Positions 10,983 to 24,530 of a stretch of DNA of 39,825 nt are shown here, in pieces. Positions within the stretch are counted from its first letter, which is position 1, and every line of letters starts with the position of its first letter. The notes below the pieces were generated by a model. That model did not search any database and was not told the DNA's origin. It was given only the letters and a program-made list of their open reading frames with translations. The translations under genes were made by a program, and so were the position numbers. The DNA is taken from assembly GCA_021789895.1 (NCBI GenBank), contig JAJYIU010000031.1:1-39825 (forward strand), given 5' to 3'. The DNA comes from Acidobacteriota bacterium (GTDB taxonomy: Bacteria; Acidobacteriota; Terriglobia; Terriglobales; SCQP01).

Positions 10983-13466
10983 TCATGGCCGCCGCGGAAG
11001 ACCGATGGAACGCTTGCCGAGCGATTCCGGCGCCGTTGCCGGCCGGCCCGAGACCGGCTGACCGGGCAAGCGACTGGGAGCCAGCGCGCGCGGCTGGAGA
11101 AGGTAGGCGCGCCCGGGCCGAGCGGAAATCTGCAGCACGCTTTCGGAGGTTGGACGCAGCACGAGCGAGCGCGTGCGCGCATCGAAGATTTCCGCCGGCC
11201 GTCCCGGCCATGGATTGCGGATGCAGAGCTTTCGCGCCGTTCCGTTTTCGATGATGGCCGCCCGCAACCGGCCCTGGCGTATCCACACATGCACCCGGCC
11301 ACCGTGCAGAACGTACACGGTGGCATCGGCATCCCAATTCTTGGGCCACGCGGGGGCGATACGGATGAGCCCATCGGAATCCTGGACCAGGGCCTGTTGC
11401 AGGGCGTCCGCCACTACGCCGATCTGCTCGACGTAGAATTCGGGGCCGGCGAAGCGGGCAAAGCCGGAGGGGTAGGCTTGATATTTGGCAGTCAAAGCCC
11501 GCAGGCTCGACTCGAACTGACCGGCGAGCCCGAGCCGCGCCGCCTGGATCGGATCGAAGCTCCAATCGTCGAGGTTCTGGTAAGGGCGATGGAGAAACGT
11601 GCGCACGCCGAGCGCGTGCCGAGCTCCGCCGCCGTCAATCAGCTCATACGGCCACACCGGCTCAAGACCGACGTTTTCCGAATTGTGAATCCTGGCGCCC
11701 GGATCATGGCTGGCGATGATGATGGTGTCGTTTCGCCGGGAATGCGGGTCCACCAGCGCCTGGGGCGACGCCAGGGCAACCATGGGAAAGCCGGGAATGC
11801 GCGGCAGGTCCTGTTTCAGCTCTTTCACTAGGGCGCCATCGGTTCCGAGCAAGGCCGCCGCCTGCATGACTGCCGGAAAGAGGGCGCGCATGGCGCCGAT
11901 GTCGGTGGTGGGATCGTGAACATCCCATTCCGTTTCATGGGCGTTCGAGGGAAACGTATGCAGCCGGCCATCCCGGCCGCGGGTGGCGTAAGCCCGCAGA
12001 AAACGGGCCGATTCGCGCATCACCGGATAATTTTTACGGAGGAAAACGAGATGGCCGGTGTATTCGAATTGGCGCCAGATCCAAAGGCTGACTTCCGCTC
12101 CGGTGGTCAGAGTGCGGGCATTGTAAAAGGGACGAAAATCTTCGCCGCAGTCGATGGCCGGCGCGGCGGCCCAGGTTTCATTCTCATATCCCCGGCCATT
12201 GAAGCGCATGGTTTCCGGGATGCAGGCACCGGGGCGGCCGCCCATATGCGCGCGGGTCCAGGCGAGGATGTGGCCGAGATTTTCCCGATACAAGCGAAAG
12301 TAAGGCTGATTGAGGGCGAAGGCGCCGGCGCCCAGATTCGCGTCCACCTGCATGCGCAGATTCCAATGCCAAAAAGCCGCCGGGTCCCACTGGTGATGGT
12401 CGCGAAAAGCGGAGAACAAATCGCCAATGCCGGCCTGCGAGCCGGGGAAGCGGCCGCGGCTTTCAGCCGCGGCGGTGAACAAATCGATGGCGCGCAGATG
12501 CTCAAAGTAGCCGGCCGCACCGTCGCGGGAATGGAGTTTCATCAGCCCGACGCGGCTCCAGAACCGATGCCACCAGGCGCGATGCTCGCCGGCCGGCAGC
12601 AACCGCGCCGCGGCCAGCAACTTCGCCGCCGCCGCCGCGGCATCGCCGCCACGCCAGGCAGGAGCGCCGATGAGCACGCGGAAGGAACCGTCAGCGTGCG
12701 GCAGGAAGCGAAGCCTGACGGAGCGTGAACCCTCTGGTTCCACGCGAACCTGGCGCGCATCGGCGGTGATCGCCGCCAGCGAGCCGAACCGTTGCCCACT
12801 CGCGCCGGCCTGACGGTGATCGCGCCAAGTCTCGGCGAGAATTCCCATTTTCTCCGTATGCAGCACCTGCGGCCGGCGCGGCGCCCAGAGATGCAATTCG
12901 GCAATCTGCTCCTGTTTGGGATTTGCGCCGGTGACGTCAATGAACATGACATCGAGCCCCGCGGCCACATAGGCGGTGGCGGTCATGCCGCCGCCACGCT
13001 GGCGAAATTCGCCGTCATAAAGATCGAGCCGGCCGGCATAGCCGGCTGGGGAGGCCAGTTTTTTCAATCCGGGCAACACCACCTGCCCGGGCGACCGGCG
13101 CAAAGGAAAGGTATCGCCGCGATTCAACTGCGCCGTGAAGCCGTCCTGCGCCCAGACGGCGACTCCGAGGCGGCCGTTCCCCAGCGGCATGGCCGAGGCA
13201 GGCAAAACATTGGGCCGTTGCAGGATGATATCGGAGCGCTCCACCACTTCCCGGCGATGGATGAGATAACGCCAGCGGCCGCGGCTGGCTGGCAAGGCCG
13301 CATGCTGGCCCAGCGCCGTTTGCACTCGGGGCGCGCCGATGCAGAGCAGGCTGGCAAGCGCCCCTGCCCGGCTAAGACGGCGGATCAGCAGGCGCCGCCG
13401 GCCGGGGTGGCGGCGGGGCGCCCGGATAGCCAAGCGCTTATTCCAATAATTTATAGAGCCTCGCAT
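10983..13466 (-). CDS. DUF5703 / GH95-like secreted glycoside-hydrolase-like protein
   Basis: An 827-residue exported protein. A long Arg-rich N-region (RRRLLIRRLSRAG) precedes a hydrophobic core (ALASLLCIGA), so export by Sec or perhaps Tat is likely. The N-terminal beta-sandwich has the pattern seen in DUF5703 and GH95-related proteins (DIILQRPN, ASAMPLGNGRLGVAVW, QLNRGDTF). The middle is helical with many Trp, Asn and acidic residues (HHQWDPAAFWHWNLRMQVDA, SNAHETEWDVHDPTTD, NSENVGLEPVWPYELID), fitting an (alpha/alpha)6 barrel. A small beta domain closes the chain. It would cleave or bind a plant- or microbe-derived polysaccharide; no substrate or catalytic acid can be named. ATG 13466 was chosen; upstream in-frame codons look non-coding. 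It converges with the outer-membrane-like gene. Confidence 0.75.
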   Translation of the reverse strand: MRGSINYWNKRLAIRAPRRHPGRRRLLIRRLSRAGALASLLCIGAPRVQTALGQHAALPASRGRWRYLIHRREVVERSDIILQRPNVLPASAMPLGNGRLGVAVWAQDGFTAQLNRGDTFPLRRSPGQVVLPGLKKLASPAGYAGRLDLYDGEFRQRGGGMTATAYVAAGLDVMFIDVTGANPKQEQIAELHLWAPRRPQVLHTEKMGILAETWRDHRQAGASGQRFGSLAAITADARQVRVEPEGSRSVRLRFLPHADGSFRVLIGAPAWRGGDAAAAAAKLLAAARLLPAGEHRAWWHRFWSRVGLMKLHSRDGAAGYFEHLRAIDLFTAAAESRGRFPGSQAGIGDLFSAFRDHHQWDPAAFWHWNLRMQVDANLGAGAFALNQPYFRLYRENLGHILAWTRAHMGGRPGACIPETMRFNGRGYENETWAAAPAIDCGEDFRPFYNARTLTTGAEVSLWIWRQFEYTGHLVFLRKNYPVMRESARFLRAYATRGRDGRLHTFPSNAHETEWDVHDPTTDIGAMRALFPAVMQAAALLGTDGALVKELKQDLPRIPGFPMVALASPQALVDPHSRRNDTIIIASHDPGARIHNSENVGLEPVWPYELIDGGGARHALGVRTFLHRPYQNLDDWSFDPIQAARLGLAGQFESSLRALTAKYQAYPSGFARFAGPEFYVEQIGVVADALQQALVQDSDGLIRIAPAWPKNWDADATVYVLHGGRVHVWIRQGRLRAAIIENGTARKLCIRNPWPGRPAEIFDARTRSLVLRPTSESVLQISARPGRAYLLQPRALAPSRLPGQPVSGRPATAPESLGKRSIGLPRRP

Positions 13467-13650
13467 GGCCTGCAACCTACCCATCGAGTGCACATCCATT
13501 GCTGCGGCGAATGATTTGCCAACTGCCACGCTGGCAGATTGGCATAGTAGCACTTGGGCCCGGCAGTTTGCGCGAACTAAGCCGAATCCGGGAATGGCCT
13601 AAATCGAAAATGGCGGGAGCGCTCCAGTAGCTTGCGTCTACAATTCCCCC

Positions 13651-14439
13651 ATGCGCCTGAGCGCCGTCTTCGCCGCCGTTGCGCTGCTCGCTTTCGCCGG
13701 ATGCCGCCGGCATGAGCGCGCAGCCGGCCGTATTGCGGCTCGCCCGCCGGAGGCTTCGAGCGGCTGGATCGACAGCCGCGGCGACGGCTTCCCCGATGCC
13801 GCCCATTTGACCAGCGCAAGCGATCGCCAGGCGCTGCGCCGCTGGATTGCCTTCATCGCCGAGAGCGAGTTTCAACATCCGCGGCAACTGGCCGCGCGGG
13901 TCGATTGCGCCGGCTTTGCTCGCTGGGTGCTGCAAGAGGCGCTGCGGCGCCATGACGCGCGCTGGTGGCGCCGCATGCGCTTCGCCTTCCTGCCTCCCGC
14001 CGCTGACGTCGCCGCCTGGAACTACCCCCAAGGGCCGCTGGGCGACCGTCTTTTCCGGATCCGGCCTGGCGCCTTCCATCCCTCCGACCTGGCCGATGGC
14101 ACATTCCGCAGTTTCGCCGACGCCCGCCATCTGATTCTATTCAACACCGTGCGGATCAGCCGGAATCTCGCCCCAGCCCGCCCCGGCGATCTACTCTTTT
14201 TCTATCAGCCGGGTCACAATGAGCCTTATCACACCATGCTCTATGTGGGTGGCTCGACTTATTTTCCAACTCATCATCACCGGTTTGTGGTATACGATAC
14301 GGGAGTAATGCCCGACGGACGCTCGGAGATCCGGATGATGGCGCTCAAGGCGCTGCGGCACTATCCCATTCCGCGCTGGCGGCCGGCGCTTTCCAACCCG
14401 CGCTTTCTCGGCGTCTATCGTTGGAAGATTTTGGAATAG
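13651..14439 (+). CDS. DUF1175 (YfaT-like) lipoprotein with NlpC/P60-like Cys/His pair
   Basis: A 262-residue protein. The N-terminus MRLSAVFAAVALLAFAGC ends in a plausible lipobox with C18 as lipid attachment site. The body matches the DUF1175 family typified by E. coli YfaT (WIDSRGDGFPDAAHL, SASDRQALRRWI, GDLLFFYQPG). A DCAGF motif with C86 and a YHTMLYVGG motif with H194 are arranged as the catalytic Cys and His of NlpC/P60 papain-like hydrolases. A peptidoglycan- or peptide-cleaving activity is therefore plausible; this is inference and not shown for the family. It stands 97 bases before the alpha-2-macroglobulin gene, the same association as yfaT-yfaS in E. coli. Its start has no good ribosome site. 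Confidence 0.8.
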   Translation: MRLSAVFAAVALLAFAGCRRHERAAGRIAARPPEASSGWIDSRGDGFPDAAHLTSASDRQALRRWIAFIAESEFQHPRQLAARVDCAGFARWVLQEALRRHDARWWRRMRFAFLPPAADVAAWNYPQGPLGDRLFRIRPGAFHPSDLADGTFRSFADARHLILFNTVRISRNLAPARPGDLLFFYQPGHNEPYHTMLYVGGSTYFPTHHHRFVVYDTGVMPDGRSEIRMMALKALRHYPIPRWRPALSNPRFLGVYRWKILE

Positions 14440-14536
14440 TCGCGGAACTTGGCCGGCAACGCGTCCTCGCCGAGCCAGGAATCATCCCCGATTCCCTAAC
14501 TGCGCCCGAGCTGTTGTAGCAGTCCGGAAGGAAGCG

Positions 14537-17500
14537 ATGGCTTCGAGTCGCTTAAAACAAGGCGTTCCTTGCATCAACCTGGAAATCTTTGCGTCCGCTC
14601 CGCTCCGGGCCGCGGCGCCGGTCATGACGGCACTGTTCCTGCTGCTGCCGCGTCCGATCCTGGCCGCGGCAAAACCGCATAAGCCGGCCTTCGTGCTGGC
14701 GACCGCGCGCACTTATGCCCCCGGCGAAAACGCCAAGTTCGTGCTGCGGTTTCGGGATGTCAGCGCAATCAAGTTTCGCGTTTACCGCGTCGCGCACCCG
14801 GTCCGTTTCTTCGAACAACTGAAAAACCCGCACCAGATCGGAGGGCCCAAAGTCCAAATCCCCGAAGTTCCGACATTATTGGAGCTATGGAGCCGGTGGA
14901 AGCGCGAACTGCGCTACAGCATGAAGAACTTCTTGCGTCATCAGTTCAGCTACGCCTTCCGCGCCGCCTATGTCAGGCGGCATAGCCGCCATTACACCAG
15001 CCTTAAGGTCGCAGTCACCCACTTCGCGGAGGTGCCGGTACTGAATCACTCGCAGTTGGTCGTGCGATGGACCGAATTGTTGCCGCGCGAACGCGATTGG
15101 GATAGCCGCGTCATTCCGCTGCGGATCAGCGGCTCCGGGCTATATCTGGTCGAGGCCAGCGCCCATGGCCGCTTCGCCGATACGATCCTGATCATCACGC
15201 ATCTCGGGTTGGTCATGAAGTCCGCGCCCGGCCAGATCGTCATTTTCGCCGCCGGCCGCAAGCGCGGCCAGCCGCGTCCGGGGACGCGGATCGTGCTGCG
15301 TCCGGCACAGCGGTATCTGGCAAAAATGACGATGCAGGGGGTGACCGGAGCCGACGGCTCCGTCAGCTTCAATCTTCCCGGCGGCGCGCCCCAGGATTGG
15401 GTCGCCCTGGGCCAGAAGGGCGATGATTTCGCCGCCACCGATCTCCCCTCCTGGTTCTTTAACAGCGCTTCCACCAAGACCATTCTCGGATATCTATACA
15501 CCGACCGGCCGGTGTACCGGCCGGGGGAAACGGTGCAGTATCGCGGCATCCTTAGGGAGCAGCAACACAACCTGTACCACATTCCGGCCGTACGCCAGAT
15601 TCAGGTCAAGATCACGGACGGCTCAGGCAAGACGGTGGCGGTTCAAACTCTCCCGCTCACGGCCATGGGCGCTTTTGCCGGGAGCTTGAAACTGGCAGCC
15701 TCCAGCGAACTGGGCTACTACTCGATGACGGCCAATCCGGTGGGGATCACCGGCGACGAAAGCGTGAATGCGTCCGCCTATTTTTCCGTGCAGGATTACA
15801 AGCTGCCCGCCTACCATGTCGATGTCAAGCCGGAGCAGCCGCGGATACTGGAAGGTGGCACCGAAAGCATCAACATTTCGGCCCGATATTATTATGGCGA
15901 TCCGGTACCGGCGGCGAAACTGACCTGGAAACTGCTGCGCTCGAGCTACTGGTCCCCGTGGGAGTACGAGTGGTCGGATGACATAGACGAGGGCGATTAC
16001 GGCGGCTATGATTACGGCGGCACGCCGATCCAACAGGGACAGGGGCGGCTGGATGCCCAGGGCCGTTTCCGCCTGCAAATTCCAGTCCCCGTCGCCAGCC
16101 GGCAAGGCAATTACAGCTACCGCCTGGTGGTGGGAGTTACCGACCTGGCCAACCGCGAGATTGATGGAGCAGGCACCTTTATCGCCACCTATTCCGACGA
16201 TCAGGTGGCCATCGCAGCAGTAAATTATTTCGCCGCCGCCGGCGCTGCCGTCCCATTCAATGTTCGCGCCGCCACTTACGAAAACAAGCCCATCGCAGTG
16301 GCGTTAACCGCATCCGATGCGCTGTATTCCTGGCTGGCGCCGAAAGGCTCGCGGGCGAAGCCGCTGGCGAGCGTCAACTTCGCCACCTCCGCCGATGGGA
16401 CGGCGCAATTTGCGCTGACCTGCAACGTGCCCGGCGATCACCGGGTTACCGTGGCCGGTTTCGACGCCCATGGCCGCCGGTTCAGCGACGAGACGTACTT
16501 CTATTGCCAGGGCCCCAGTGCGCTCCCGTACGCGACCGAATCGGGACAGGTCACGCTCAAGACGGACAAAAAGAGCTACCAACCCGGCGACATCGCCCGC
16601 GTTTTGGTTCAGCTTCCGGCATGGAAACATCCCTCTCCAGTCTGGCTCTGGTTGACGACGGAGCTGGATCGAGTCCGGACGCATGCCATTCTCAAGGCGG
16701 ACGGCAATACGGCGACCTTCGCCGTCCCGATCACCGCGGACGACATGCCCGACATCATGGCCGATGTCACCTTCCTCCGAAACGGCCAGATGTATACCGG
16801 CGAAGTGCGCATCAACGTCCCCGCCAACCGTCAAGCGCTTCGAATCCAGATTGAGCCAGGCAAGCCGCAATACACGCCCGGCGACGAGGCGAGCGTAACC
16901 GTCTCGGTCCGGGATGCCGCCGGGCATCCCGTGGCCAATGCGGATCTCGGCATCGCCGTCATTGACGACGCAATTTATGCCATCGCTCCCGATTCCTCGC
17001 CCGACATCTTCCAGTACTTCTACGGCTACCGCGTCAACCAGGTCTCGGTGCAGTACTCCGCCGACTACTACTTCGAGGGCTGGTCGGGACATCACCGGCT
17101 GAAACTGGCCCGCCGGCCGGTGACCAGTTATGCGGAACTCGCCGGCGCCTTGGGCGATGTGAAACCCACGCCCGCGCCGCCGACCCAACCGCACGTCCGC
17201 AAAAAATTTACCCCCACCGCGTTTTGGCGGGCCGGAGTACGAACTGGCGCGGACGGCCGCGCCACGGTGCATTTTAAACTGCCCGACAGCCTCACCTCCT
17301 GGCGCATCGGAATCCGCGCCGTAACCGCCTCGACGCAGGTTGGCTCCGCCCTGGCGCATTTCGTGACCCGCAAGAATCTGATGCTGGATCTGGCGCTGCC
17401 TCGTTTCGCGGTTGAAGGCGACCAGTGGACCACTTATGCCATCGTCCACAATGACCTGCCCACCACCCAGCAGGTTCATTTAACTTTGGCGGCCAAGACC

Positions 17501-19405
17501 GGCGCCCAGGCCGGCGGCGTTCAGGTAGCCAATAGCGGAACCCCGAAGCTGGCGGTCGCCTCCCACCAGCAGCAACGCTATCCCTGGCAGTTGACGGCGA
17601 CGCGCGCCGGAAATGTGAACCTTCTGGGCGCCGCGATTGGACAAACCGATTCCGATGCATTGGAATTGCCGCTGCCGATCAAGCCCAACGGCATCGAGCT
17701 GGCGCAAAGCTACAGCGGCGAGCTTTCGACCACGGACCAGGCTTCGTTTAGCTGGCAACCTCCGGCCGGCGCGCGACCGGCCGGTTCCTATCTGCTGCTG
17801 CATCTGGCCCCCTCGCTGACCGCGACGGCGCTGGGCGCCTTGCAAAATATGATTCAGTATCCGTACGGCTGCACCGAGCAGACCTCGTCGGTCATGCTCT
17901 CGATTCTGGCGGTTCGGGCGGCCGCCCGCAGCTTGCATCATCCCGAATTGGCGCCGGATGCGCAGCTTCTGCCGCGCCTGCGGACCGGCATCGCGCGCCT
18001 GGCCCACAGCCAGAACAACGATGGCGGCTGGGGCTGGTGGCCAGCGACGCCGAGCGATCCGTATATGAGCGCCTTGGCGGTGGAGGCGCTGGCCGGCGCC
18101 CAGGCCGCCGGAGCCGCGGTGAATGCGAGCCTGCTCCAACGCGGGCACGACTATCTGGTGGGGTTGTTGCGCGATCATCCCCGCATGATTCCCGATCTGC
18201 AAGCGCCGTTGCTGCTGGCGGCCAGACGTTCCGGCACGATTGCTCCGGCCTTGACCGACAATCTGTGGAGCTGGCGCTCGAAACTGTCGCTCCAGGGCCG
18301 GGCCGAAATGGTGCTACTGCTGGCTGAGACCAAGGATGCGCGCGCGCCGCAGGCGCTGCAACGCCTGTTGGGAATGGCCAAAAGCAACGCCCTGGAGATG
18401 TGGCTGCCGCAAGCCGGCGATGCCTGGCTCGGGTTCGGCGACCTGGACGACAGCGATTGGAGCGATTGGTATATTGACTTCGATATTGACGACAGCAGTC
18501 TCACCACGGCCACGGCGCTCGAGGCGATGCTGCGCCTGGAGCCGTCCGATCCCAGGGTCGTGAAAGCCATACGCTACCTGGTCGGACGCTCCGCTAACGA
18601 TTGGTGGGTTTCAACCGAACAGACCGCCGAAGTCATCACCGCGCTGGCCGACAGCCTGCAACGTTCCGGCGCGGGCGCCGAGATGAATCCGAATTTCACC
18701 GCCCGCGTGAAGGTCAACGGCGCCACGGTTGACCGCCATCGCTTCACCGCGGCCGACCTGCAGGCGCAGGCGCGCGAACTCCGTATCCCGCTGGGCCCGG
18801 GGCCGGTGACGGTCTCGCTGAACCGCCAAGGACCGGGCGTGCTCTATTGGGACGCCACCGTCGTCAGTTACTCGCGCGACGACCGCTATGTTCATCGCGG
18901 CGGCTTCAAACTCAATATCCTGCGCCAGTACTTCCGGCTGCAAGCGGTCAAAACCGTTGATTCGTCGGGGCAGCCAGCCATCGGTTACCGGCCCGTACCG
19001 CTGGCCGGAGCGCTGCATGTCGGCGACGTGCTCCTGGTCAAGCTCACCGTGAGCGGCGGCCGGCAAGCGCACCTGCTGATAGACGATCCGATTCCGGCCG
19101 GGGTGGAACCGGTGCCGCTCGACTCGCTCTACCCACTCCTGAACAAGGACGGCAAAGTGGGCTATGAGTTCGACTCAAACGATTTCTACGATTGGTTCGG
19201 CTACTCCCGCGTCTTCCGGGACGATCGCGTCAGTTTCTTCCAGGACCGTTTCCAACCCGGACAGCACACCTATTCTTATCTGGTCCGAGTGATTATCCCG
19301 GGAAAGTTCACGGCACTTCCGCCGCGGGTTGAACCGATGTACGATGCTTCGCGCCTGGCCACGGGCGACCGCAACTCAATGCAATTCCTGCCCAGCCAGC
19401 CCTGA
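14537..19405 (+). CDS. Bacterial alpha-2-macroglobulin with intact thioester
   Basis: A 1622-residue secreted protease-trap protein. The N-terminus (hydrophobic about 30-44, MTALFLLLPRPILAAA) is a signal peptide without a clear lipobox. The MG-domain hallmark TDRPVYRPGETVQYRG is at about 322-337. An acidic Tyr/Gly-rich insert (DEGDYGGYDYGG) lies near 485. The A2M core includes WRAGVRTGADGRATVHFKLP and LTSWRIGIRAVT. The thioester motif is YGCTEQ with C1112, E1114 and Q1115, within YPYGCTEQTSS. A helical thioester domain (NNDGGWGWW) and a C-terminal beta domain follow (MYDASRLATGDRNSM). Known bacterial A2Ms bait proteases and bind them covalently by the thioester in the periplasm. ATG 14537 has AAGGA just upstream. 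The next gene follows after 25 bases, so co-expression is likely. Neighbours are of the yfaS type, whereas thioester-bearing A2Ms in Proteobacteria usually accompany pbpC. Confidence 0.95.
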   Translation: MASSRLKQGVPCINLEIFASAPLRAAAPVMTALFLLLPRPILAAAKPHKPAFVLATARTYAPGENAKFVLRFRDVSAIKFRVYRVAHPVRFFEQLKNPHQIGGPKVQIPEVPTLLELWSRWKRELRYSMKNFLRHQFSYAFRAAYVRRHSRHYTSLKVAVTHFAEVPVLNHSQLVVRWTELLPRERDWDSRVIPLRISGSGLYLVEASAHGRFADTILIITHLGLVMKSAPGQIVIFAAGRKRGQPRPGTRIVLRPAQRYLAKMTMQGVTGADGSVSFNLPGGAPQDWVALGQKGDDFAATDLPSWFFNSASTKTILGYLYTDRPVYRPGETVQYRGILREQQHNLYHIPAVRQIQVKITDGSGKTVAVQTLPLTAMGAFAGSLKLAASSELGYYSMTANPVGITGDESVNASAYFSVQDYKLPAYHVDVKPEQPRILEGGTESINISARYYYGDPVPAAKLTWKLLRSSYWSPWEYEWSDDIDEGDYGGYDYGGTPIQQGQGRLDAQGRFRLQIPVPVASRQGNYSYRLVVGVTDLANREIDGAGTFIATYSDDQVAIAAVNYFAAAGAAVPFNVRAATYENKPIAVALTASDALYSWLAPKGSRAKPLASVNFATSADGTAQFALTCNVPGDHRVTVAGFDAHGRRFSDETYFYCQGPSALPYATESGQVTLKTDKKSYQPGDIARVLVQLPAWKHPSPVWLWLTTELDRVRTHAILKADGNTATFAVPITADDMPDIMADVTFLRNGQMYTGEVRINVPANRQALRIQIEPGKPQYTPGDEASVTVSVRDAAGHPVANADLGIAVIDDAIYAIAPDSSPDIFQYFYGYRVNQVSVQYSADYYFEGWSGHHRLKLARRPVTSYAELAGALGDVKPTPAPPTQPHVRKKFTPTAFWRAGVRTGADGRATVHFKLPDSLTSWRIGIRAVTASTQVGSALAHFVTRKNLMLDLALPRFAVEGDQWTTYAIVHNDLPTTQQVHLTLAAKTGAQAGGVQVANSGTPKLAVASHQQQRYPWQLTATRAGNVNLLGAAIGQTDSDALELPLPIKPNGIELAQSYSGELSTTDQASFSWQPPAGARPAGSYLLLHLAPSLTATALGALQNMIQYPYGCTEQTSSVMLSILAVRAAARSLHHPELAPDAQLLPRLRTGIARLAHSQNNDGGWGWWPATPSDPYMSALAVEALAGAQAAGAAVNASLLQRGHDYLVGLLRDHPRMIPDLQAPLLLAARRSGTIAPALTDNLWSWRSKLSLQGRAEMVLLLAETKDARAPQALQRLLGMAKSNALEMWLPQAGDAWLGFGDLDDSDWSDWYIDFDIDDSSLTTATALEAMLRLEPSDPRVVKAIRYLVGRSANDWWVSTEQTAEVITALADSLQRSGAGAEMNPNFTARVKVNGATVDRHRFTAADLQAQARELRIPLGPGPVTVSLNRQGPGVLYWDATVVSYSRDDRYVHRGGFKLNILRQYFRLQAVKTVDSSGQPAIGYRPVPLAGALHVGDVLLVKLTVSGGRQAHLLIDDPIPAGVEPVPLDSLYPLLNKDGKVGYEFDSNDFYDWFGYSRVFRDDRVSFFQDRFQPGQHTYSYLVRVIIPGKFTALPPRVEPMYDASRLATGDRNSMQFLPSQP

Positions 19406-19430
19406 GAATGACGCGAGGAAAGGACACCGT

Positions 19431-20291
19431 ATGCGATTGAGCTTGTGGCATCGAGGCGCGGGCGGCGCGAAAACGCAGGAGACGGGCCAGCTCACGTCTT
19501 CGCAGCACGGATTCCGCCGGCGGCTATCCGAACTGGCAGATACATTCGCGCGCTTACGCTCCGGCGGACGGCCTTCCTGGCTTCTGGTTTTATTCTGCGG
19601 CGCGTGGATGCTGATCCTGGTGATCGCGTTTTTTGCCTGGCTGGGGCTTTCCGATTCGTCCGGCTGGTGGCTGGCCGCCCAGGCTGCCGGCTTCGTTCTG
19701 CTGTTATGGCTGCTGGTGTGGGGCTTAGGCTCGATCATACGCATCAGCCGCGGCGAATCCGGCGCACTCGGCGGGTGGGCAATCGCCTGGAAGGTATGGC
19801 TGTTGTTGGCCGGTTGGGCACTGCTGGCCTGGAGCATCTCTTCCTGGCTCGGTTGGCTCATTTCGTTCGCTTGGATCGCGCAATCCGAGCTGACCTTCCG
19901 GTTGCGGCATCCCGTGGCATTGGCGCTCATCACCACTCCATTGCAAACGGTTCAATGGTTGCTGAACTATGTGGTGTTTCCTGCGATCGCCATCGGGCTG
20001 CTCGCCAAATACATGCTGCACCGCCGGGAGCGTCTCATGGCGCGCTGGCGCCGCTGGAGCTTCTGGCTGGTTGCGATCTTGCTGGCCCTGGTCGGCGATG
20101 AATTCAGCGCCTGGCTCACTAACTGGCGGCCGGCGGTGACACCGGATTGGCGCGAGGTGGCGAGCGTTGCCTTGCGGCTGGCGGCGGCCGCGTTGATCTT
20201 CGTTTACTTTTTCCTGCTGCAAGTGGCCTGGTACGCATCCAGCCCGGAGGCGGCGCCCGCCAGCGCCCCGCTGCCTGGCCCCGTTAGCTAG
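19431..20291 (+). CDS. Six-helix inner-membrane protein of the A2M cluster, unknown function
   Basis: A 286-residue integral membrane protein. After a polar, basic N-terminus of about 45 residues, hydrophobic segments lie at about 50-71, 80-103, 120-148, 168-193, 208-226 and 243-268. They are rich in Trp (LVWGLG, WSISSWLGWLISFAW). The C-terminus is Pro/Ala-rich. I do not recognise a family and see no catalytic motif. ATG 19431, with GAGGAAAGGA upstream, was preferred to the in-frame ATG at 19329, which would overlap the A2M gene and add 34 non-hydrophobic residues. It is 25 bases downstream of the A2M gene and almost surely in its operon, so it may anchor, export or sense the A2M. Its stop TAG lies within CTAG, shared with the convergent next gene. 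Confidence 0.75.
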   Translation: MRLSLWHRGAGGAKTQETGQLTSSQHGFRRRLSELADTFARLRSGGRPSWLLVLFCGAWMLILVIAFFAWLGLSDSSGWWLAAQAAGFVLLLWLLVWGLGSIIRISRGESGALGGWAIAWKVWLLLAGWALLAWSISSWLGWLISFAWIAQSELTFRLRHPVALALITTPLQTVQWLLNYVVFPAIAIGLLAKYMLHRRERLMARWRRWSFWLVAILLALVGDEFSAWLTNWRPAVTPDWREVASVALRLAAAALIFVYFFLLQVAWYASSPEAAPASAPLPGPVS

Positions 20292-22786
20292 CGCACGGCG
20301 CGTTTTTCGCGGGCGTGGGAATGCAAAAATACCGCCAGGCCCTCGCGGCTAACTTGGGCGGCCACCCATTCGCCGCAAGCGGCATAGGCGGCCCGCAGCG
20401 CCGCCGGCGTGCGCGCATTCTCCAGGGCAGTTTCCCGTTGAGCCGCGGTCCGATGCTTCACGAGCCCGCGCGCCCGCATCGGTTCGCCGGCCAGCAGCAT
20501 GGCAAGCCCTTCCTGCGTGCAATGGCTGATGCCGGGCCGGAGATAGGCTTGCAGCACCACATGGAGCAGTTCGTGCTCCAGCACATGACGCAGAATGCCG
20601 CGTTTGACCAGCAACGCCTCCGGCTGCAGCGCCACCTTGCGGCCGCGAGTCAAGCCGCTGTACCAGCCGGATTGGCCGGTGGCCGCAATAAAGGCGGCGG
20701 TGGATGGAAACACCGTCAACGTGAGCTTGCCGGGAAGGCTATAGCCCAATTCGCGTTCGGCGGCGGCAAGCAACGGCTCGCACAGCCGCAGAACGCGCCG
20801 GGGCGCAGGGGCTTGATAGCGGATCTGGCAGCGCCCGGTATCCGCCGATTGCCAGTGGAAGCCGCCGCCGCCCGGCGGCGCGGTAGCCGCCGGCAGCGGC
20901 GGCCGTGCTTGGATTGCGGGCGCCCACCTTTCGATGCGGGTGTGCGGATAGTAAAAAGCTAGGATCGCCGCCCAGGTGGCGCCGCGGCGGGCCATGCCGG
21001 CGGCGCCGGCTTCGCAGAGCCCGGCGCCGTGGCCCAGTCCATGGCCGATAAATACCCAATTCCGGCCTTTCCGCCGAATGGAAAACCAGGTGCTCTTCAG
21101 CCGGTTCCAGCCCAGCCGGCGATCGACATCGAAGCGGAAATCGTCCGCGCGAATGACGATGCGCCGGCGTGAATCGAGGCGGGTCAGGAGCAGCGCCTGC
21201 GCCCGCCCGGCGCGATCGCGGGAGAGGATGGCCAGATCGAAGCGCGCGGGCGGCCGATGGAAAACGCCGGCGCCGGCCAATGCACGCGCCAGATCCCGGC
21301 TGCGAATCTCGGCCGTCCAGGTATGGTTGGGCGAGTTGCGACAGAACGGATCGGGATGGGCGCGCAAGTACGGCACCTGGTGCGGGACGAGCGGCGGCTT
21401 GGCGGATTCGGTGTATCCGCCGCAGTTGGCGCTGTAGAGCACCTGCACCGGGCGGCCGTGGTAAACCAGAATTTCTCCCGCGGTCGCGCGCGCCGCCGCT
21501 TGCGCTTCGCTCCCCGGCGGCAGCCAGGCCTGGCAGTGCGTCAAGGTGCAGAAGTCATAGCCCGCGGCCGCATGGCGGCCGCGGTGAGTCAGCGCCCAGG
21601 TGCGCGCCAGGACCGCCATGGCTTTCTGCGCCGCAAGCGGGAGCTGGCCGGCTTCGCCCTGCACCACCCCGGCAACGTAATCCTCCAACCGCATACGAAC
21701 GATCCTGAAACGGCCGGCTGCCGGCCCCCGCGGTAGCCGCACCCGCACCGTGGCCGCGCCGGCCGGCGGGCGCGCGCGCCACGCCCAGGCCCCGGGGTGC
21801 GCGTGCAGCCAGCGCAGAATCCGTCCGCCCAACCCGGCCGCATCGCGGCTTCCGCTGCCTTTGGGAACCAGCACCAGAACCAGCACTCGCGGCCGGGGCA
21901 GGGGGGCAAAGCCGGCAAACCAGGCATGGCTGCTTTCGCCGGCCTGCTCGGAGATCGTCCCCGTCTTGCCCGCGACCGGCCAGCCCCGAACCGCCGCCGC
22001 CTGGCAGCTTCCGTATTGGACGCAGCCGCGCAATCCCGAAGCAACGAACTGCAAGGCGCGGTCTCGCGGATGACGTTCAATCTGCCGCAGCAGCCGGAGA
22101 TAAGCCCGCGCCAACTGCCAGGGCGTGACGTGGATGCCCGCCGCGCCGATCGCCGCCGGCCCCAAGCCGCCGGCGCCGGAAAGCACGCGATCCGGACGCA
22201 GCCCATAAGGCGCCAGCGCCGCCTGCCAGGCGGAAAACGGCAGGCGTTGGGCCACCGTCAGGAAGAAATAATTGCAGGAAATTCCCAGGGCTTCGGCCAA
22301 ATTGATCGGCCGGGCGATGGCGGGATGGACGCATGCAAAGCGTTGGCCGTAGCGCGGCGTAACCCGCAGGCAGCGCAGATGATCGCCGCGCCGGACCACT
22401 CCGGAGCGCAGCAGCGCCAGGGCGGTCCAGGGCTTGATCGCGGAGCCCGGCAGCAGCCGCAAGCGCCGGGCCGCTGCCAGCCGGACCGCCGCTAATACTT
22501 TTCCGCTGGCGACATCCTCAATCAAAACGATGGCTTGCGCGGGCCGGGCGAGCTGTGCCGTTTCGCGGGCCAGCGCGGGCTGCCAGGCGATTTGCGCGCC
22601 GGCGCGGGCGGAAATGGCCATGACCGCGATCAACAAAAATTTGCAGGGCCGGACCGGCTGGCAGCGCCTGGAGCCCAAGGCACGCTTTCGCTCGCCTCCA
22701 TACGCTCGAATCGAAGCCGCGAATATCAAAGCAATTCCCATTGAAACGGCATAGGCTGGCGACCTACGCTGCAGAGGCCGCACCAA
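20288..22786 (-). CDS. Three-module protein: PBP-like domain, SpoIID domain, HExxH domain
   Basis: An 832-residue exported protein. Hydrophobic N-terminal stretches (15-25 and 50-60) act as signal or anchor; the true start is uncertain. Residues about 80-310 carry the three motifs of penicillin-binding-like serine enzymes in order: S115-A-I-K118, S170-C-N172 and K274-T-G276. Residues about 345-620 are a SpoIID/LytB domain: LEDYVAGVVQGEAG with E378, the position of the SpoIID catalytic Glu; VLYSANCGGYTE; GHGLGHGAGLCEAGAAGMA. Residues about 660-830 contain HELLH (738-742) and QEGLAML with E759, a gluzincin-type zinc site. SpoIID enzymes are lytic transglycosylases acting on glycan strands. Position beside YfaT- and YfaS-like genes suggests correspondence to YfaQ (DUF2300), but I could not confirm it by alignment. 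It converges on the A2M operon and its stop shares CTAG with the neighbour's. Confidence 0.8.
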   Translation of the reverse strand: MVRPLQRRSPAYAVSMGIALIFAASIRAYGGERKRALGSRRCQPVRPCKFLLIAVMAISARAGAQIAWQPALARETAQLARPAQAIVLIEDVASGKVLAAVRLAAARRLRLLPGSAIKPWTALALLRSGVVRRGDHLRCLRVTPRYGQRFACVHPAIARPINLAEALGISCNYFFLTVAQRLPFSAWQAALAPYGLRPDRVLSGAGGLGPAAIGAAGIHVTPWQLARAYLRLLRQIERHPRDRALQFVASGLRGCVQYGSCQAAAVRGWPVAGKTGTISEQAGESSHAWFAGFAPLPRPRVLVLVLVPKGSGSRDAAGLGGRILRWLHAHPGAWAWRARPPAGAATVRVRLPRGPAAGRFRIVRMRLEDYVAGVVQGEAGQLPLAAQKAMAVLARTWALTHRGRHAAAGYDFCTLTHCQAWLPPGSEAQAAARATAGEILVYHGRPVQVLYSANCGGYTESAKPPLVPHQVPYLRAHPDPFCRNSPNHTWTAEIRSRDLARALAGAGVFHRPPARFDLAILSRDRAGRAQALLLTRLDSRRRIVIRADDFRFDVDRRLGWNRLKSTWFSIRRKGRNWVFIGHGLGHGAGLCEAGAAGMARRGATWAAILAFYYPHTRIERWAPAIQARPPLPAATAPPGGGGFHWQSADTGRCQIRYQAPAPRRVLRLCEPLLAAAERELGYSLPGKLTLTVFPSTAAFIAATGQSGWYSGLTRGRKVALQPEALLVKRGILRHVLEHELLHVVLQAYLRPGISHCTQEGLAMLLAGEPMRARGLVKHRTAAQRETALENARTPAALRAAYAACGEWVAAQVSREGLAVFLHSHAREKRAVR

Positions 22787-22874
22787 TGAATTATTGCTAA
22801 AAAGAAACGGGCTGCACGGCGGAAGCTCTCCACCGCGGCCCCCGCCTCCAGAGCCGGCGCGCTATGATCGAATC

Positions 22875-24530
22875 GTGCAGGCACTTCAGCCAACCGCTAT
22901 CCCCTCGCATCCCAAAGGCACTCGAGCCCGCGTACTGCTGAGCTCCGTGTTTGGCCCCTATGCCCGCGACGATGAGTTTGGCAGCCGCGCCATCAATCCG
23001 ATGGAGCTCTACCACAACCAGGTGACGCGCGAGCAGGGGGCGTACTCGCTGCGAATGTTCCACCGCTCCTGGGGCATCATGATGATCCGGGAGAACATTT
23101 CCGCCCCGTGCACCCTGCTCGATTTTCCCAGCCGCGAAGTGTTCGAGCGCGAACTGGCAACCGGCGCGTATGACATTGTCGGCCTCTCTTCCATCATCGT
23201 CAACGTGGGCAAGGTGAGGGAGATGTGCCGTATCGTGCGCCGCCTCTCGCCCGGGTCCACGATTGTGGTGGGGGGCCATGTGGCCGCCATTCCCGGCCTG
23301 AGCCGCATGATCGACGCCGATCACATCGTAACCGGCGATGGCGTGGCCTGGATGCGCCGCTATCTCGGCGAGGACACCACCGCGCCCATCCGCCACCCCG
23401 CCATCATCTCTGGTTTTGGGCTGCGCGTCATGGGCCTCGGCGCCCGCGAGCGCCCCGGCCGCACCGCCGCAACTATCATTCCTTCCGTCGGCTGCCCGCT
23501 CGGCTGCAACTTCTGCACCACCTCCGCCTTCTTCGGTGGCAAGGGACGTTTTCTCAATTTCTATGACAGCGGACACGACCTGTTCGAAGTCATGGTCCAC
23601 ATCGAAAAGAAGCTGCAAGTGGATTCTTTCTTCATGATGGACGAGAACTTCCTGCTCCATCGCCGCCGCGCGCTCGAACTGCTGGAACTCATCGAGCGCC
23701 ACCGGAAGAGCTGGAGCCTGTATGTGTTCTCTTCGGCCAACGCGATTGCCAAATACACCATGGAAGAACTGGTGGCGCTGGGCATTTCCTGGATTTGGAT
23801 GGGGCTGGAATCCAAGAGCGCCGGCTATGCCAAGCTCAAGGGCTCCGACACGCAGCAGTTGGTGCGCGAACTGCACCGCCATGGCATCCGGGTGCTCGGC
23901 TCGACCATCATCGGGCTCGAGCACCACACGCGCGAAAACATCGGCGCCGAAATCGAATACGCCGCCGAACACGATGCCGACTTCCATCAGTTCATGCTCT
24001 ACACGCCGGTTCCCGGCACGGCCCTGTACGCCGAGATGGCCGCCCAGGGACGCTTGCTTCCTGAAACCGATCTGGCCGACATTCACGGCCAATTCAAGTT
24101 TAATTTCCGCCATGCCGCGCTCTCGCGCGACGATTCCAGACAGTGGCTCGATTTCGCATTCCGGCGCGACTTCCAGGCCAATGGACCCAGCCTCTATCGC
24201 ATCTGCCGCACCACCTTCGAGGGATGGAAGCGCTATCGCCAGGACGCCGACCAGCGAATCCGCGCCCGCTTTGAGCGCGATCTCGACCAGCTTCGCTGGC
24301 TCTACCCCGGCATTCTCTGGGCCATGGAGCGGCGTTTGCGCGAGACCAATGCCACCATTCAAAAGCGGGTGGCACAATTGCGCCGCGAGATGACGGCCGA
24401 ATTAGGCCTAGGCGCGCGCCTTTCGCAGCTTTCCGGCCCGCTGTTCCAATGGGCCGCGGCACGCGAAGACCGCCGCCTCGCACGCGGCTGGACCTATGAG
24501 CCGCCCATGATCGTCGAGCACTCCGCCTGA
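22875..24530 (+). CDS. B12-binding-domain radical SAM protein
   Basis: A protein of about 551 residues. The N-terminal part has a cobalamin-binding-like Rossmann fold (VLLSSVFGPYA, YDIVGLSSIIVNVGKV, STIVVGGHVAAIPG), though the DxHxxG histidine loop is not evident. The radical SAM core begins at TIIPSVGCPLGCNFCTT, with a CxxxCxxC cluster motif (C207, C211, C214 from the GTG start). It continues with MMDENFL and WIWMGLESK, conserved in this class. The C-terminal 130 residues are helical and charged. GTG 22875 was chosen since the 27 residues upstream are Pro-rich and unlike the family; a TTG at 22794 and an ATG at 23001 are other options. Members methylate or rearrange unactivated carbons in lipids, hopanoids or cofactors. 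With no biosynthetic neighbours, the substrate is unknown. Confidence 0.85.
   Translation: MQALQPTAIPSHPKGTRARVLLSSVFGPYARDDEFGSRAINPMELYHNQVTREQGAYSLRMFHRSWGIMMIRENISAPCTLLDFPSREVFERELATGAYDIVGLSSIIVNVGKVREMCRIVRRLSPGSTIVVGGHVAAIPGLSRMIDADHIVTGDGVAWMRRYLGEDTTAPIRHPAIISGFGLRVMGLGARERPGRTAATIIPSVGCPLGCNFCTTSAFFGGKGRFLNFYDSGHDLFEVMVHIEKKLQVDSFFMMDENFLLHRRRALELLELIERHRKSWSLYVFSSANAIAKYTMEELVALGISWIWMGLESKSAGYAKLKGSDTQQLVRELHRHGIRVLGSTIIGLEHHTRENIGAEIEYAAEHDADFHQFMLYTPVPGTALYAEMAAQGRLLPETDLADIHGQFKFNFRHAALSRDDSRQWLDFAFRRDFQANGPSLYRICRTTFEGWKRYRQDADQRIRARFERDLDQLRWLYPGILWAMERRLRETNATIQKRVAQLRREMTAELGLGARLSQLSGPLFQWAAAREDRRLARGWTYEPPMIVEHSA

Follow-up and report, generated by a model that had tools for sequence, protein, structure and literature searches.

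Which envelope system is encoded by a locus in which a thioester-bearing alpha-2-macroglobulin (A2M) follows a DUF1175 gene? Bacterial A2Ms are sorted into a covalent type that occurs with PBP1c and a thioester-free type that occurs with the mag/yfa operon. The window analyzed here is the entire 39,825-base contig JAJYIU010000031.1 of an Acidobacteriota bacterium with a genome of 3.7 Mb (GCA_021789895.1). Its four-gene cluster is real and represents a variant of the Mag/Yfa system found across the phylum, joining the thioester of Type I A2Ms with the gene company of Type II. The gene identities, their linkage, the retained catalytic motifs, the homology to MagC/YfaT and YfaQ, and the separation from pbpC-type A2Ms were all established computationally. 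The initial annotation of the window had already seen that features of both types meet here. The strict split that it assumed, with thioesters on the pbpC side and none on the yfa side, was never absolute; the second A2M class is described as lacking CxEQ "in many species" (PMC3328433), wording that admits exceptions in principle.

Pfam and TIGR profile searches identified the domains, and the four open reading frames lie where they were first placed. The features are:

13,651–14,439, plus strand: DUF1175 protein (MagC/YfaT family, NlpC/P60-like), 262 aa; PF06672, E 3e-58.
14,537–19,405, plus strand: A2M, 1622 aa, probably secreted; MG2, A2M_BRD, A2M, TED_complement, and bMG10 above Pfam cut-offs.
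16,553–16,981, plus strand: bait-region domain of the A2M, residues 673–815; PF07703, E 8e-19.
17,870–17,881, plus strand: thioester motif C1112-T-E-Q1115 within YPYGCTEQ, read in the A2M sequence.
19,431–20,291, plus strand: six-helix membrane protein, 286 aa, of no known family; hydrophobic helices and an all-helical model.
20,288–22,786, minus strand: convergent transpeptidase, SpoIID/LytB, and gluzincin (HExxH...E) protein, at most 832 aa, called the wall enzyme below.
21,845–22,516, minus strand: penicillin-binding protein (PBP) transpeptidase domain, residues 91–314, with S115xxK118, S170xN172, and K274TG; PF00905, E 5e-22.
20,930–21,703, minus strand: SpoIID/LytB lytic transglycosylase-like domain, residues 362–619, with Glu378, H405, C413, H417, and C418; TIGR02669, E 1e-48.
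20,291–20,869, minus strand: C-terminal domain with a predicted gluzincin metallopeptidase fold, residues 640–832, with HELLH at 738–742 and Glu759; model predicted local distance difference test (pLDDT) score 93.5.

The membrane protein start was set at the ATG at 19,431, past the A2M stop. The start of the wall enzyme is uncertain; a TTG lies at 22,786, and a signal-like stretch is found further in.

The cluster is a conserved module of Acidobacteriota. DUF1175 is present in 55 of 396 genomes surveyed, and an A2M was found in 39 of the 40 DUF1175-positive genomes searched for one. Loci from the DUF1175 survey were combined with named Acidobacteriota loci reached through an A2M alignment search, giving 61 DUF1175 loci; one duplicate was counted once, leaving 60 (38 of them from the survey of 396 genomes and picked blind to the thioester). 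Because the alignment search favors thioester forms, thioester conservation was not judged from its loci alone. By that search, the window's nearest named loci are nearly all Acidobacteriota metagenome-assembled genomes. The A2M adjoins DUF1175 in all 60 distinct loci, and CxEQ is kept in every DUF1175-linked A2M whose sequence reaches the motif (59/59). A homologue of the six-helix gene follows the A2M on the same strand in 46 of 60 loci, and a transpeptidase-SpoIID-HExxH homologue lies nearby in 50 of 60. Loci that lack the membrane or wall gene are mostly cut contigs or belong to a single divergent family, f25. The arrangement is not a product of chance, because it recurs in 60 distinct loci and its catalytic residues are invariant at about 30% identity. 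The four genes are neighbors throughout the phylum where DUF1175 occurs; the lack of such neighborhood in related genomes, which the initial annotation named as a refutation, was not seen. The observation reaches well beyond this one window. A thioester-bearing, DUF1175-linked A2M occurs phylum-wide and also in Deinococcota.

A2Ms as such are more widespread, with some form present in 142 of 247 genomes and many of these longer (1,800–2,200 aa). Acidobacteriota genomes were also seen to hold second A2M copies. The sequence around the thioester has diverged in some of these copies (MPGGCFEQ, YPYECAEQ), and neither DUF1175 nor pbpC was found beside the second copies.

Phylogeny bears on whether the window A2M is a pbpC-type (Type I) form that stands beside DUF1175 by chance or through a recent mixture of two systems. 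It does carry the thioester typical of Type I, with CTEQ exactly at residues 1112–1115 as first read, and it lies near a transpeptidase. When 70 A2Ms were placed in one tree, those linked to pbpC formed a single clade (support 100) and the window A2M fell inside a clade of 18 DUF1175-linked Acidobacteriota A2Ms (support 100). A second tree agrees on these two clades. Uniting the pbpC-linked and core DUF1175-linked A2Ms in one clade was rejected by the approximately unbiased (AU) test (p-AU 0.0004). The linkage to DUF1175 is phylum-wide, and the adjoining enzyme was found in the Pfam and TIGR profile searches to lack a PBP1C-type transglycosylase domain. By its sequence, then, the window A2M is not a pbpC-type form; such an origin was ruled out by the tree, the AU test, and the phylum-wide linkage, and a chance mixture is hardly credible. 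The initial annotation would have been contradicted by grouping with pbpC-linked forms, which was not seen.

The deeper history of DUF1175-linked A2Ms is less sharply drawn. A single clade of all of them, with YfaS and Deinococcota included, was not rejected (p-AU 0.098), nor was the joining of YfaS, a long branch, to the pbpC forms (p 0.121). YfaS of Escherichia coli and Citrobacter lacks CxEQ. That a DUF1175-linked thioester form occurs phylum-wide and again in Deinococcota suggests an ancestral thioester in the DUF1175-linked lineage, with loss in the forms of Enterobacteria and Pseudomonas.

The first gene is assigned by sequence to the MagC/YfaT family. Its product scores 197 bits against PF06672 (cut-off 27), and an NLPC_P60 model matches it barely above cut-off. 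The DUF1175 family profile finds PDB entry 7BK8, MagC of Pseudomonas aeruginosa, at E 4e-56. The title of the article 10.1002/1873-3468.14148, cited in PMC10318531, presents MagC as NlpC/P60-like, as part of the Mag complex, and as interacting with peptidoglycan. Residues D85, C86, and H194 are invariant in an alignment of 21 DUF1175 sequences that includes E. coli YfaT, and the Deinococcota members retain the Cys as DCGG, DCSG, or DCAG. The protein had been annotated as a DUF1175 lipoprotein. The family assignment stands, and a lipoprotein signal is plausible in the window, where a possible lipobox (LAFAGC) occurs; a crude scan showed no conservation among relatives, and the signal was rejected as a common trait of the family.

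The wall enzyme has an SAIK motif at 115, SCN at 170, KTG at 274, and HELLH at 738, in line with its first description as a PBP-like/SpoIID/HExxH protein. In an alignment of 16 Acidobacteriota wall enzymes, which share about 30% identity with that of the window, S115, K118, S170, N172, and KTG are kept, as are Glu378, H405, C413, H417, and C418 of the SpoIID domain and H738, E739, and H742; E759 is kept nearly always. The score of 166 bits against TIGR02669 (cut-off 83), together with a catalytic-type Glu, places the protein by sequence in the SpoIID/LytB family, and its SpoIID domain matches PDB SpoIID 5I1T at E 4e-17. SpoIID cuts peptide-free glycan strands, and that of Clostridioides difficile has the catalytic residue E101 and zinc residues H134, C140, H145, and C146 (PMC6221140). 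Judged by spacing and motif, the wall-enzyme residues correspond to E101 and these zinc ligands. The resemblance to SpoIID of spore formers extends to domain homology, the catalytic-type Glu, and the His-Cys-His-Cys site; the domain differs here in being fused to a transpeptidase and a metallopeptidase and in having no sporulation context.

The C-terminal domain is predicted, by both motif and fold, to be a gluzincin. The structure model, built with Acidobacteriota rows only, is nearest to the peptidase domains of clostridial collagenase, M1 aminopeptidase, and LTA4 hydrolase (Z 13.2, root-mean-square deviation 4.2, 182 residues). HExxH and the downstream Glu are invariant in 22 sequences that include YfaQ and Deinococcota proteins. 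The gluzincin HExxH...E motif is common to Acidobacteriota, Enterobacteria, and Deinococcota, which is a new observation.

The wall enzyme is also connected to E. coli YfaQ (DUF2300). The DUF1175, A2M, and SpoIID models match the window as the initial annotation expected; the DUF2300 model PF10062 has no match in the window wall enzyme and none above cut-off in 297 genomes. That model was discarded as a detector of the fourth gene, since it fails in the whole phylum, and profile comparison was needed. The wall-enzyme profile finds YfaQ at 35.9 bits in collinear pieces. Profile-profile alignment is collinear from the SxxK box through SpoIID (probability 96.5, E 7e-10), and YfaQ itself exceeds the Pfam SpoIID cut-off. 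Read directly, the YfaQ transpeptidase retains SLWK, with SCG in place of SxN and KTW in place of KTG. Its SpoIID part still has the Glu and has lost most zinc ligands, and the metallopeptidase motif is intact (THEYLH and the later Glu). These comparisons newly show that YfaQ and the wall enzyme are collinear relatives, and they explain YfaQ as a transpeptidase-SpoIID-gluzincin protein that has partly degenerated. With the MagC-family assignment, the description of the cluster as YfaT/YfaQ-like is borne out. From the collinearity, the uncharacterized E. coli family YfaQ gains a predicted fold and a metallopeptidase motif that is still intact.

The third protein has six hydrophobic helices, as first noticed, and an all-helical model (pLDDT 83.5). 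A profile built from the neighbors' proteins without the window recovers it at E 2e-28. CysZ-like and choline-transporter-like folds were considered and rejected, as their Z scores of 9–10 lie within the noise stated for helical proteins.

The composition of the cluster varies among lineages. The commonest domain order of the wall enzyme is transpeptidase-SpoIID-HExxH; the window's order-mates encode the transpeptidase in a separate gene, and loci of family f25 have the rearranged order PBP-HExxH-SpoIID, with no six-helix gene found. Three Deinococcota plasmids have the order DUF1175, thioester A2M, HExxH protein, and a fourth has a thioester A2M apart from DUF1175. The lone Deinococcota HExxH protein aligns with the Acidobacteriota C-terminal domain by hhalign (probability 99.2, E 2e-19). 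A comparison of YfaQ with the Deinococcota protein is insignificant alone; the family alignment does bring their HExxH and Glu into register. Across all these lineages, the sole enzyme part that stays with DUF1175 and the A2M is the HExxH domain, and this constancy gives the strongest hint of an action on the A2M or together with it. Adjacency has an exception in Deinococcus sp. D7000 plasmid p_2, where DUF1175 lies far from the A2M and the gene that follows it.

Compared with the Type II systems, magABCDEF of P. aeruginosa and yfaA-yfaT-yfaS-yfaQ-yfaP of E. coli, the module shares a DUF1175 gene immediately ahead of the A2M, a partner homologous to YfaQ/DUF2300, and an envelope setting. It differs in having a thioester, which is absent from E. 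coli and Citrobacter YfaS and from MagD (PMC5764988). Its transpeptidase and SpoIID active-site motifs are complete, whereas those of YfaQ are eroded. It also has the six-helix membrane protein, and no DUF2138 or DUF2135 partner was found near the clusters. Gene order and partner are those of Type II; the thioester is not, and the module is therefore filed as a Mag/Yfa variant rather than a plain Type II member. With Type I (YfhM/ECAM and the Salmonella A2M with PbpC) it has in common CxEQ, the bait-region domain, and a neighbor with a transpeptidase domain. It differs from Type I in its separate A2M clade, in the presence of DUF1175, and in a partner that lacks the PBP1C transglycosylase and adds SpoIID and a gluzincin. 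No pbpC lies in the DUF1175 cluster loci, and the A2M does not group with the pbpC-linked forms.

Work on the Mag system indicates what the metallopeptidase may do. MagD captures a protease and has MagA, MagB, and MagF as binding partners, and in Pseudomonas that has lost magE, MagD reportedly stays unprocessed (PMC5764988). By gene order (A2M, DUF2300, DUF2135) and by masses (MagF is about 26 kDa), magE should be the DUF2300 gene. Gene linkage and the magE result together point to a metallopeptidase that acts on the A2M, and the resident enzyme probably processes it. The collinear homology of DUF2300 to the wall enzyme makes directly testable the question of what processes MagD from 165 to 100 kDa. 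The metallopeptidase could instead be an immunity or clean-up enzyme that degrades cleaved A2M-protease adducts and has no part in activation or maturation. That role would suit its gluzincin fold, which comes closest to collagenases and M1 peptidases, and the place of its gene next to the A2M in most DUF1175 clusters. If the DUF2300 protein is MagE, the unprocessed MagD of the magE mutant suggests that the native form is acted on. An exclusive clean-up role is unlikely. We give still less credence to a complement-like switch, in which the gluzincin, attached to the wall through its SpoIID and transpeptidase domains, would sense wall damage and cut the thioester A2M, as a convertase cuts C3, and the A2M would be fixed covalently to anything present at the breach.

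The module is probably a thioester-bearing relative of Mag/Yfa, serving a two-membrane bacterium as an envelope complex for protection of the periplasm. The A2M would be exported. A protease intruding into the periplasm would cleave its bait region, and the exposed thioester would then bond covalently to that protease; trapping of this kind is proposed from established A2M chemistry (PMC5764988, PMC4498604) and from the conserved motifs. The DUF1175 protein, with its NlpC/P60 fold, may hold the complex to peptidoglycan. The six-helix protein would probably anchor it to the inner membrane, in the place of MagB in Pseudomonas. From their motifs, the DD-transpeptidase and the SpoIID-type glycan-strand cutter may trim and re-seal peptidoglycan around the complex, and the gluzincin may either process the A2M or remove A2M-protease adducts after cleavage.

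Several points weigh against this protective complex. The window DUF1175 carries Asp where relatives have His in YHTG. The DUF1175 family is called inactive, though MagC keeps its Cys-His motif (PMC10318531), and this makes wall cutting by DUF1175 doubtful. Fold comparison of the six-helix model gave no recognized fold. Because the wall enzyme gene runs convergently in the window and in many relatives, it is not co-transcribed there. SpoIID+HExxH proteins also occur in genomes without DUF1175, mostly without an A2M, which implies that the enzyme has uses outside this system. The identity of MagE with DUF2300 is based on gene order and masses, not on sequence. A literature search found no experiment or shown activity for any Acidobacteriota member.

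A rival reading is a unit that mainly remodels the wall. Its A2M would be a scaffold or would guard the unit's own wall enzymes against proteolysis, and the thioester would bind peptidoglycan or envelope proteins instead of intruding proteases. In its favor, three genes out of the four have to do with the wall or membrane, the NlpC/P60, SpoIID, and transpeptidase motifs are kept, and in other phyla (Vampirovibrio and relatives) SpoIID and PBP genes likewise lie next to a thioester A2M. Against it stand the bait-region domain and the capture of proteases by two related proteins, MagD and the E. coli A2M (PMC5764988, PMC4498604). In an alignment by eye, a weak inference, Asp rather than His falls at the position considered for hydroxyl-directed thioesters. 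A wall-remodeling unit is a minority possibility, and protease trapping by a Mag/Yfa-like complex is preferred.

Related genes occur in other settings. Seven genomes have SpoIID+HExxH proteins without a transpeptidase domain, with no DUF1175 and mostly no A2M. Five loci in Vampirovibrio, Obscuribacterales, and relatives have a thioester A2M with SpoIID and PBP genes upstream on the opposite strand and no DUF1175, a possible further A2M-SpoIID partnership. In the yfa cluster of E. coli MG1655, yfaS is a pseudogene; an O157:H7 strain has both yfaS and yfaQ broken, and strain AR_452 has both intact. In part of the species, the yfa system appears to be in decay.

A role in anti-phage defense was rejected, as PADLOC matched none of the four proteins and the DUF1175 gene is absent from phage records. 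The genes flanking the cluster were set aside as members of the unit, since no homologue was found in other cluster loci. Upstream of the cluster, 10,983–13,553 (minus strand) encodes a distant GH95-like glycoside hydrolase, and adjoining it, 22,794–24,530 (plus strand) encodes a B12-binding radical SAM protein that is a weak relative of HpnJ.

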